Source: a virus
Direction: 5' to 3' (one strand)
IMG/VR virus record: IMGVR_UViG_3300017782_000108
Location: 1-31,946 of that record
Length of the DNA stretch: 31,946 nt
Shown here: in pieces, positions 1 through 31,946 of the stretch
Layout: every line of letters begins with the position of its first letter
Numbering within the stretch: the first letter of the stretch is position 1
Notes under the pieces: generated by a model
What the model was told of the DNA's origin: nothing
What the model saw: only the letters and a program-made list of their open reading frames with translations
The model's database searches: none
Translations under genes and position numbers: made by a program

Positions 1-26
1 GCCATAGCTAAAGCCACATTTTTCAT
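1..26 (-). CDS. 5' end of the repeat-leader gene that continues at the other window end
   Basis: On the minus strand an ATG at 26-24 lies two bases after the TAA (31-29) of the upstream gene and reads MKNVALAM to the window edge. This matches in phase the (Ala-Met/Ala-Leu) repeat frame that enters at 31946-31842. Bases 1-10 match 31937-31946 with one mismatch, so the two ends probably overlap in a circular or permuted genome. If so, this is the true start of the gene at 31435-31941. The tight stop/start spacing resembles other junctions in this genome (4457, 5929, 23207). The exact join cannot be resolved from this sequence alone. Confidence 0.5.
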
Positions 27-28
27 AT

Positions 29-403
29 TTAAGAAGCTTTGACATCTGGCTGACCCTCAATAGATTCTATTGCGATGTCACTTAGCTTTAATATCTCTAT
101 AGCTTCTAACCAAATCTTTTCTACAGCAGGACAAACTTTGCTTTCAGAACGAAGACCGTGAACAGCAACACCCGAAAGAGATATCGATTTATTGCATTTC
201 CAATAGTAAAGTCTTCTTGCGTCACTCAGTATTACTTCATTTCCTGCTTTCTCTGAAAGTAATCCAAACCAAACTCCAGCGGAGAAAGTTCTAACAATAA
301 CTTTTTTTCCTAAATGATAATTTAATGTAGAAACAGCTTCATTTTTATTGAAAATAGCAGCAATATTTTTTAAATCGCCATATTTTAAATCATCTATATT
401 CAT
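29..403 (-). CDS. Conserved phage protein, DUF6948-like
   Basis: A 124-residue soluble protein of unknown function. Its centre (about residues 32-90) reads GKKVIVRTFSAGVWFG, then a DARRLYYWK block and a CPAVEKIWL block. This is the pattern of a small phage family I recall as DUF6948 (VRTYSAGV...ARRIWYW...), found in early regions. The start at 403 overlaps the upstream stop (ATGA) and has GGTGAG just before it. It is part of the leftward early operon. The family name is from memory and should be confirmed by a profile search. Confidence 0.75.
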   Translation of the reverse strand: MNIDDLKYGDLKNIAAIFNKNEAVSTLNYHLGKKVIVRTFSAGVWFGLLSEKAGNEVILSDARRLYYWKCNKSISLSGVAVHGLRSESKVCPAVEKIWLEAIEILKLSDIAIESIEGQPDVKAS

Positions 404-7084: not shown

Positions 7085-7534
7085 ATGAGCAGAGGAATAA
7101 ACAAAGCAATTATTGTTGGGAATTTGGGCAATGATCCAGATGCAAGGATTTCAACAACCGGGAGCGCTATAACAACAATTAGTGTAGGAACTAATGAGCA
7201 ATGGAAGGATAAAACAACAGGCAAACAAGAGTCTAGAACCGAGTGGCACCGCATCGTATTTTTTGATCGATTAGCAGAGATTGCCAGTGAATACTTAAAA
7301 AAAGGCTCACAAGTTTATGTGGAGGGGAAAATAAAAACCAGGAAGTGGCAAGATCAAAGCGGACAAGATCGTTACACGACTGAGATTGTCGCGAATGAAA
7401 TGCAAATGCTAGGCGGAAAGGCTGAGGTGCAGCAAACCCCCAAAGCTAACCCCCAAACCCCCAAAGCTAACCCCCAAACCCCCGGAGACAATCAGCAAAC
7501 AGCAGATCAATTTGACGATGAAATTCCTTTTTAA
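7085..7534 (+). CDS. ssb: Single-stranded DNA-binding protein
   Basis: A 149-residue SSB. Residues 1-110 form the OB fold ([50 protein letters not shown]); about 112-138 is a Pro/Gln-rich linker with a 7-residue repeat (TPKANPQ); the end is the acidic tip DDEIPF that recruits partner proteins in bacterial SSBs. It binds phage single strands during replication and recombination. A weak AAGAG precedes the ATG. The linker DNA is a tandem 21-bp repeat with five C5 runs. The stop is immediately followed, with no gap, by the stop of the convergent tailspike gene. Confidence 0.95.
7437..7483. repeat. 21-bp tandem repeat with five C5/G5 runs in the ssb linker
   Basis: Two full 21-bp units (7437-7457, 7458-7478) plus the first five bases of a third. 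C5 runs at 7437, 7450, 7458, 7471 and 7479 are separated by 8, 3, 8 and 3 bases. On the minus strand these are G5 runs, a G-quadruplex-type pattern located 52-98 bases after the tailspike stop on the late transcript. In ssb the unit encodes TPKANPQ and keeps the frame for any copy number. Confidence 0.9.
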
Positions 7535-29648: not shown

Positions 29649-30083
29649 TTACTTATTAGCTTTTAGATAACCAAAATAAGCGGCAGACCTAGTATCTTTA
29701 TTGCTGCTCTTATACCATTTTGTAATCCTTTCAAATTCTTTTATTTCTTTAACGTCTTTCCATTTACTTGATGGCTTATGCAAAACATACGGAATTCCAT
29801 AAAAATCTAAATCGCTAACAATCTCTAATTGCGCCTGCTGACACATACCTATTCGTCTACCGATGCTATTGTCTACAGCATTCTTGCCTGTCTTTTTGTT
29901 AGCATGAACCGGGTTTGAATAACACACATTCTCAATTGAGAAAAAACAATCTTGATTGTATCTGTGCGACTCTATTATTTCGTTTCTCGACATCATAGCC
30001 AAATCAAACAGTTTCCCATCTTTGTAAACTGCAACACCGTGCCTTTTCTTTCCCGAGCCAGGATCAATACCTACAACTATCAT
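29649..30083 (-). CDS. RuvC-like Holliday junction resolvase
   Basis: A 144-residue RNase H-fold nuclease. The acidic residues stand where expected: VVGIDPGS with D7, SIENV with E51 and, near the end, NKDTRSAAYFGYL with D130 (and R132 plus the following helix), as in RuvC-type resolvases. It should resolve branched DNA made by phage recombination before packaging, matching the Rad52-like protein and SSB encoded elsewhere. It is somewhat shorter than E. coli RuvC. The start overlaps the nuclease gene upstream by 20 bases; GGTGG lies before it. Confidence 0.8.
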   Translation of the reverse strand: MIVVGIDPGSGKKRHGVAVYKDGKLFDLAMMSRNEIIESHRYNQDCFFSIENVCYSNPVHANKKTGKNAVDNSIGRRIGMCQQAQLEIVSDLDFYGIPYVLHKPSSKWKDVKEIKEFERITKWYKSSNKDTRSAAYFGYLKANK

Positions 30084-30390
30084 TTACCACCATTTCTCTA
30101 CATTTTTCTAATAAAAACTCTTCAGTACCGTAAGCATCCTCAAAAGCCCTTTTCCCATCGCCATGCCTGCTTATCCATCTTTTTGGCTTATGCGTATCAG
30201 CTAATTGATGGTGAGCAGAGCATAAAGGAATCGTCTTAAAATGCGCACCCGGCTTTGTTTTACCGTCAATATGATGCGGTGAAACTTGAGTAGTTAATAT
30301 TCCATAGTGCAACCAGCACACAATACATCCTAATTCGCATACATCGCCCATCCATATACTTTCCTCCTTGGTCGGGGGCCTTCCCTTCAT
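30064..30390 (-). CDS. Ref-family HNH nuclease (RecA-dependent type)
   Basis: A 108-residue nuclease starting MKGRPPTKEESIWMGDV. Cysteines C18, C22 and C25 (CELGCIVC), the HHIDG motif (39-43), PLCSAHH (55-61) and the C-terminal HGDGKRAFEDAYGTEEFLL form the pattern of the P1 Ref / RecA-dependent nuclease family, a zinc-containing HNH fold. Ref of P1 cuts DNA at RecA filaments and boosts recombination. The ATG at 30390 fits the family N-terminus; a frame extension to 30483 adds 31 Trp-rich residues unlike the family. Neighbour of the RuvC-like gene. Confidence 0.75.
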   Translation of the reverse strand: MKGRPPTKEESIWMGDVCELGCIVCWLHYGILTTQVSPHHIDGKTKPGAHFKTIPLCSAHHQLADTHKPKRWISRHGDGKRAFEDAYGTEEFLLEKCREMVVNDSCRY

Positions 30391-30505
30391 GCAACCAACG
30401 CTCCACCAACCATTCCACCAATGACGAACGCAGATAAAAGCATAATCGCTATATATTTCTTGTCTTGCGAACTCAACGACCATAAAAACACTGCAAACTT
30501 AGTAA

Positions 30506-31434: not shown

Positions 31435-31941
31435 TCACCTACTGCTCGGCCAATTCGGAAAACAAAAACCAAAATGAATTGAATAAGCTCTAGACAATGC
31501 TTCTGCTACAGTGCTTGGCTCAATTGTATTTTGATCTTCAGTGCTGAGCTTTCCAGTCAATGTTTTAAGAGTAGGTTTATATAAAAACTCTTTCACTAAA
31601 AGCATAGTCCAAAACTCGGTTATATTAACTTTCGTGACCGGATGAAGCCTTTGAAAATAATGATTATGATCGTTTAACAACTTAGCAACCAGATCACACC
31701 ACACATGCAATGATCCGCGCTGCGGCTTAGTCATTGAATTATCATCAACAGAAGCAACGAATTGTTGCGGCAAGCTATCATAATCTTGCTGATTCAATGC
31801 CGTTAAGCCAAGATTGTGCGTTTTTTGTAAAACTATATTCATTTTCTTAATACCCAGAGCCATAGCCAGAGCCATCGCCAGAGCCAGAGCCATCGCCATA
31901 GCCAATGCCATAGCCAGAGCCATCGCCAGAGCCATCGCCAT
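31435..31941 (-). CDS. Conserved phage protein with (Ala-Met/Ala-Leu)n hydrophobic leader
   Basis: The frame is open to the window edge. The C-terminal 135 residues, from an ATG at 31842, include GSLHVWCDLVAKLLND then FLYKPTLKTLTGKLSTEDQN and HFGFCFPNWPS, resembling a phage protein of unknown function that lies near recombination genes (SLHKYFxLLAxALNDAG..., KEFLWRPxQKAxTGKxST). The part before 31842 is a hexamer repeat coding for alternating Ala-Met and Ala-Leu, a long hydrophobic stretch. No good ribosome site precedes 31842, while joining the contig ends gives a start (MKNVALAM) two bases after an upstream stop. Whether the leader is translated is open. Confidence 0.6.
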   Translation of the reverse strand: MAMALAMALAMALAMAMALALAMALAMALGIKKMNIVLQKTHNLGLTALNQQDYDSLPQQFVASVDDNSMTKPQRGSLHVWCDLVAKLLNDHNHYFQRLHPVTKVNITEFWTMLLVKEFLYKPTLKTLTGKLSTEDQNTIEPSTVAEALSRAYSIHFGFCFPNWPSSR

Positions 31942-31946
31942 AGCCA
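31854..31946. repeat. Hexanucleotide tandem array at the contig end
   Basis: About 15 units of six bases ending GCC (AGAGCC, ATAGCC, ATCGCC, one AATGCC). A degenerate stretch at 1-16 (GCCATAGCTAAAGCC) continues the same pattern at the other end. Because the unit is six bases, all minus-strand frames stay open and unit changes do not shift the frame; in the gene frame it codes Ala-Met/Ala-Leu. The array is the likely reason the assembly breaks here. Confidence 0.9.

Follow-up and report, generated by a model that had tools for sequence, protein, structure and literature searches.

A hypervariable hexamer array spanning the ends of a viral contig very probably encodes a short (Gly-X)n peptide next to a DUF6948 gene

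A hexamer array at both ends of a viral contig

The locus described here raises the question of whether a tandem repeat is a DNA element, an RNA or coding sequence and, if it is translated, in which frame. The IMG/VR record IMGVR_UViG_3300017782_000108 is a 31,946-base viral contig of class 'linear', and its full length is the window of this analysis. Its top-scoring tandem repeat in TRF is a minus-strand hexamer array at 31850–31946 with a period of 6 and 16.2 copies, a figure that refers to the part within the contig, as the contig breaks inside the array. The first-pass annotation of this DNA had counted about 15 hexamers at 31854–31946, close to the roughly 16 given by TRF, and two of its other observations are confirmed: the array continues in degenerate form at bases 1–16, and the two contig ends match over 10 bases with one mismatch (1–10, GCCATAGCTA, against 31937–31946, GCCATAGCCA).

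On the minus strand, each unit consists of TGGC followed by one of the dinucleotides TA, TC or GA (with one AT in the window), which corresponds to the codon pairs GGC-TAT, GGC-TCT and GGC-GAT. The sequence suggests that the window ends join inside the array, since one and the same ORF, whose type recurs in many phages, starts at one end and stops at the other. The repeat had already been proposed to span the contig ends, and it is a Gly-frame ORF that would run across the join. Across records, 33 of 159 arrays touch contig ends, and long arrays often lie there.

Three frames through one array

The array can be read as TGG-CNN, which is Trp-rich, as GGC-NNT, which alternates Gly with a second residue (Gly-X), or as GCN-NTG, which yields Ala-Met/Leu. 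An intact TGGC core excludes stop codons from all three, so that an open frame by itself says nothing in favour of any of them. With the ends joined in register, the Gly frame reads MSKLLKYEKCGFSYGYGDGSGDGSGYGIGYGDGSGSGDGSGYGSGY and then a stop, with the start at 45 and the stop at 31849–31847. The 5′ part of this gene (1–45, minus strand) opens with the ATG at 45–43 and encodes MSKLLKYEKCGFSYG, and the 3′ part (31847–31946, minus strand) encodes GYGDGSGDGSGYGIGYGDGSGSGDGSGYGSGY. The resulting peptide, GX in the following, begins MSKLLKYEKCGFSYGYGDGSGDG and finishes GYGSGY, and the TAA stands directly after the array and just before the next gene. A Shine–Dalgarno-like GAGGG (54–58, minus strand) is located 8 nt ahead of the start. 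The same features recur in other arrays: among the matches listed, an ATG lies upstream in the Gly frame in 56 of 59 flanked arrays, and in 34 of these 59 the frame reaches a stop no more than three codons from the array end, compared with 13 for each of the other frames.

The first-pass annotation had instead proposed a hydrophobic Ala-Met/Ala-Leu leader of variable length, read from a minus-strand ATG at 26 and fused to the protein encoded downstream at 31435–31842. This ATG does lie two bases after an upstream stop, namely the stop codon (31–29) of the gene at 29–403, and the frame is open and in phase with both the repeats and the 31435–31842 gene if the contig ends overlap by 4 or 10 nt, but not if they are butted directly. 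Against such a leader, an intact core keeps GCN-NTG free of stops, any frame would be in phase with the next gene one time in three by chance, the ATG at 26 is not preceded by a Shine–Dalgarno sequence, and the downstream gene has an ATG of its own at 31842. The search of relatives that had been suggested as a check points the same way: of 98 arrays (among the matches listed), only a handful have an Ala-Met/Leu frame that runs on into a long ORF downstream, the equivalent frame in relatives (L401) reads Ala-Pro/Ala-Thr, and relatives carry the repeats out of frame with the gene, which is what the annotation had named as speaking against its own proposal. What survives of that proposal is that the repeat is protein-coding, given that the Gly-frame gene has a start, a stop and coding-type conservation, and that gain or loss of units alters peptide length in frame, which is seen in named phages. 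Its frame, peptide, gene and function give way to Gly-[Tyr/Ser/Asp] in a small gene of its own, placed between DUF6948 and the gene downstream, and with a product made of Gly, Ser, Tyr and Asp, a membrane leader is the least probable of all readings considered here.

The Ala-Met/Leu frame is also found in GenBank, where the deposited CDS of the Chlorobiaceae phage CV-1-33 (L402:1828-2073, QOE32032.1) follows this erroneous frame, the GX ORF being 1812-2069. In the Iodobacter phage phiPLPE (L400:1173-1409), the GX gene behind DUF6948 is unannotated in the deposited genome.

A two-gene cassette in unrelated phages

Scanning viral contigs for the array pattern returned at least 120 loci. Among the matches listed, 98 arrays in 85 loci, including the window, contain all three unit types, and their spacers comprise 1022 TC, 857 TA and 680 GA, with every other dinucleotide below 65. 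Clustering of the neighbours of 160 Gly-X arrays puts DUF6948 far ahead, upstream and on the same strand in 123 cases among the matches listed. Where at least 600 nt of upstream sequence is available, DUF6948 lies directly upstream on the same strand in 108 of 113 listed arrays and is missing from five. A reverse sample, in which loci were fetched via a DUF6948 DNA motif alone, regardless of arrays, and new loci were counted, gives a GX ORF directly after DUF6948 in 71 of 78 loci, a short one in two and none in five (among the matches listed); like the other counts given here, these take no account of relatedness.

The two genes overlap. In most loci, the GX ATG precedes the end of the stop codon of DUF6948 by 13 nt (about half of them) or by 17 nt. 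The window belongs to the 17-nt class, in which the overlapping ends are translated as VKA/VEA in one frame, as MSK/MSR in the other; the same overlap, together with an MS[KR]L start, is present in L002, L004, phiPLPE and the Pectobacterium/Dickeya phages. The window thus displays the cassette in full: a GX ORF on the same strand that starts inside the 3′ end of the DUF6948 gene, overlaps it by 17 nt and stops directly behind the alternating Gly array.

Based on DUF6948 similarity, the cassette occurs in the named phages phiPLPE, Vibrio IKEMa6-1, Chlorobiaceae CV-1-33 and phages of Pectobacterium and Dickeya; it is also found in a Neisseria gonorrhoeae prophage, in gut phages and in many environmental contigs. 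MW202478, the weakest DUF6948-similarity match, has no GX ORF. DUF6948 looks largely phage-borne, because it was detected in 0 of 369 bacterial genomes in the class of G001—a result that alone is no proof of absence—and, among 395 genomes in the class of G003, only in the seed genome itself.

Several variants of the arrangement deserve mention. Tandem GX genes, two to five in number and each with its own short N-terminus, are present in L030, L257, L266, L284 and L300. In some gut-type phages (A2; e.g. L058:8591-9061 and L036:6985-7476), a conserved domain of 150 aa (FAHG.T ... WHHxLTGSC) follows Gly-X in the same ORF; its structure is modelled with confidence (pLDDT 93.6), and the search of the PDB returned no fold relative. 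Pure (TGGCTC)n microsatellites (L126-L242) are widespread in Gammaproteobacteria and Alphaproteobacteria, many of them marine.

Selection on the peptide rather than on the unit

A codon-degenerate pattern scan returned arrays composed of GGC-NNT, GGC-NNC, GGT, GGG or GGA units. In every kind, the X position is occupied mostly by Tyr, Ser, Asp or Asn, with Ser codons that differ between arrays (TCT, TCC or AGC). Since the identical type of peptide arises from GGC, GGT, GGG or GGA units, selection acts on the protein. This holds even among direct relatives of the window's DUF6948 gene, whose GX partners use other codons (GGA in L003, GGT in L004).

The pattern of change within the Gly codons can be compared by position, in a test that is anchored on G.G.G.G stretches and hence favours positions 1 and 2: among the matches listed, 101 DUF6948-adjacent arrays show changes of 3.6% at position 1, 3.2% at position 2 and 9.0% at the synonymous position 3, and in 20 eroded arrays these values are 9.2%, 8.3% and 38.4%. 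Composition is kept as well. Asp, Tyr and Ser each account for 5% of X or more in over 90 of the 101 listed arrays, a mixture not expected to persist under slippage-driven drift alone, and the 101 arrays contain 57 Lys/Arg versus 802 Asp/Glu. Profile scans with the GX peptide gave no significant match. Inside most arrays, synonymous positions are nearly invariant and X positions vary, which would fit slippage of a few unit types and would also fit a constraint at the RNA level.

Rapid change in length and order

Eight phages of Pectobacterium and Dickeya, whose DUF6948 DNA is 88–94% identical to that of Koroua, illustrate how quickly the array changes. Their GX peptides range from 53 to 89 aa with reshuffled unit order (Ymer equals Abuela), the genes differ in length only by multiples of 6 nt, and the N-terminal MSKLIKPE is the same in all. 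Illumina reads underlie the assemblies of the Ymer-genus genomes (PMC11445585), which makes the exact array lengths provisional. Two established routes to variability were considered and rejected: a phase-variable contingency locus that is switched on and off by frameshift, as the unit is 6 nt and length changes keep the frame; and DGR-type mutagenesis, as the substitutions show no specificity for A and resolve into three types of unit.

Taken together, the array is very likely the coding body of a short (Gly-X)n gene, X being mostly Tyr, Ser or Asp, whose GGC-NNT frame on the minus strand crosses the contig ends. This gene would come second in a conserved phage cassette of two genes and overlap the 3′ end of DUF6948, with protein-level selection on Gly and on the Tyr/Ser/Asp mixture, and with unit order and length that vary quickly in 6-nt steps while the frame is kept.

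The neighbours of the array

The first cassette gene (29–403, minus strand) encodes a DUF6948 protein of 124 aa that matches PF22253 in Pfam with an E-value of 2.5e-27 and 95.3 bits (curated cut-off 27), and a search of the whole record finds this single copy. An AlphaFold2 model based on 76 DUF6948 proteins (pLDDT 94.1, pTM 0.78) was compared with the PDB using Foldseek, and the best matches are all Sm/LSm proteins, including yeast Lsm3 (E 5.4e-4) and an archaeal SmAP (TM-to-target 0.78, rmsd 2.2); E-values are moderate (best 5e-4) and the query is itself a predicted model. A sequence search of the PDB with DUF6948 gave nothing close. DUF6948 is hence predicted to be Sm/LSm-like.

On the other side of the array, the next operon gene (31435–31842, minus strand) starts with its own ATG at 31842 (MNIVLQ...), encodes about 135 aa and is not fused to the repeat. 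Profile searches gave no family match for its product, and no relatives were confirmed in IMG/VR; its suspected identity as NinB was dropped, as it found no profile support. BLAST searches of the phage collection with the downstream gene and the array, at the DNA and protein levels, returned no useful match, for which low-complexity filtering is a likely cause in the case of the array queries. In another locus, L009, a true NinB gene comes after the array. A little further downstream of the cassette in the window, minus-strand genes at 30064–30483 and 29649–30083 encode a Ref-like RecA-dependent nuclease and a Holliday junction resolvase (PHROG 1770), forming a recombination module. Elsewhere in the window, a 21-bp repeat of 2.4 copies (7431–7483) lies in the C-terminal linker of a gene for a single-strand DNA-binding protein-like product (7085–7534).

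What the pair might do, and what else the array could be

How the two proteins act can be sketched tentatively. Repeat slippage or unequal recombination would generate the length variants, and the GX peptide may be a disordered, low-complexity, acidic chain of the sticker-and-spacer type. This chain would work with the Sm-like DUF6948 protein, which is probably an RNA- or protein-binding oligomer, and the two could constitute a multivalent scaffold early in infection, with translational coupling through the gene overlap. Arrays would be free to reshuffle because composition matters rather than the exact sequence. A bolder version, which we likewise consider possible without favouring it, is an unrecognised system of an Sm-like protein and a hypervariable repeat partner, in which (Gly-X)n provides phage RNA or DNA with a tunable scaffold that forms condensates, or in which the array transcript is an RNA that the Sm-like protein reads in a hexamer pattern, i.e. 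a VIPR counterpart with a translated repeat.

The most serious competitor, although rather unlikely, accepts the peptide gene as real and makes its product a host-directed antagonist—a decoy, an anti-defence factor or an inhibitory peptide—with an arms race, instead of a scaffold partnership with DUF6948, behind its variability. Rapid turnover among close phages, recombination genes nearby in several records and a peptide without match to known families would all suit such a role, but a constant composition combined with a free sequence fits a disordered chain better than a specific binder, and the tight coupling to the Sm-like gene is not what an antagonist would lead one to expect.

Considerably less probable is that the array matters as RNA and the peptide is secondary, so that its transcript, with a conserved UGGC and a variable dinucleotide, serves the Sm-like protein as an RNA partner or as a noncontiguous guide. 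The conserved GGC with variable NN resembles the logic of VIPR (PMC13142463), the phage encodes a partner with a predicted RNA-binding-type fold, arrays turn over fast, and synonymous positions are invariant within them. Yet the period is 6 and not 5, an NN that is almost only TA, TC or GA is too poor for a target code, arrays of GGG and GGA break GGY and leave the amino acids unchanged, an in-frame ATG and stop are conserved, and DUF6948 is Sm-like instead of RRM/RAMP. Even less credible is a non-coding array, either a neutral microsatellite or an iteron-like DNA element, the latter of which the first-pass annotation had kept as an alternative. Slippage probably acts on the array, and pure (TGGCTC)n hexamers are common in bacterial genomes; these bacterial arrays, however, are nearly all one-unit repeats, and all four tested genomes with pure arrays lack DUF6948, whereas DUF6948 is present in the sole genome found to contain a mixed array. 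Mixed arrays go with DUF6948, and their conservation at the protein level extends across different DNA units.

Relation to known systems

DUF6948 resembles Sm, LSm and Hfq proteins in its predicted fold, a helix and an Sm-like beta barrel, with yeast Lsm3 and archaeal SmAP as the best PDB matches, but it shares only 10–20% identity with them, and its low-complexity chain is a separate, overlapping gene. The PF22253 family record gives no function; the coupling to GX and the Sm-like fold were worked out in this analysis. Gly/Ser/Tyr low-complexity domains of the FUS type and silk-like (Gly-X)n chains have Gly alternating or mixed with Ser and Tyr, and tolerate reshuffling. The GX peptide is like them in composition only: it is about 50–130 aa long, strictly of period 2 and rich in Asp.

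In the open-licence literature, we found no publication that names the DUF6948/PF22253 family, and nothing on a pair of DUF6948 and GX among work on glycine-rich variable phage peptides. As a whole, the cassette matches no described kind that we found, even though its parts—an Sm fold, a Gly-rich disordered chain and a slipping microsatellite—are known. The pair recurs in unrelated phages and yet is easily missed: the peptide is of low complexity, gene callers skip or misframe it, and assemblies break within it. Because the same peptide is rebuilt from different codons and reshuffled among close relatives, it offers a natural test bed for selection on composition versus sequence in a disordered chain.

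The closest published logic is that of VIPR, in which a phage RAMP protein of RRM fold, Vipr, is paired with vrRNAs that carry GGY/NN repeats; these are pentameric (YNNGG/GGYNN), occur in 9–16 copies with free NN, and belong to a noncoding RNA in long intergenic sequence (PMC13142463). Both systems are phage-encoded pairs of a small protein of RNA-binding-type fold (predicted here) and a hypervariable tandem repeat of GGC or GGY with variable dinucleotides. The cassette nevertheless departs from VIPR in several defining respects. Its repeat is a hexamer instead of a pentamer, its dinucleotides are limited to TA, TC and GA where NN is free in VIPR, and other Gly codons are used as well. Its array lies in a Gly-frame ORF with start, stop and Gly-preserving substitutions, unlike the noncoding VIPR repeat, and this gene overlaps its neighbour rather than occupying long intergenic sequence. 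Finally, its partner is predicted to be Sm/LSm-like and not RRM/RAMP. An additional role of the array as RNA is possible, and the cassette would represent, besides VIPR, a further phage arrangement in which a hypervariable repeat sits beside a small protein with a predicted RNA-binding-type fold.
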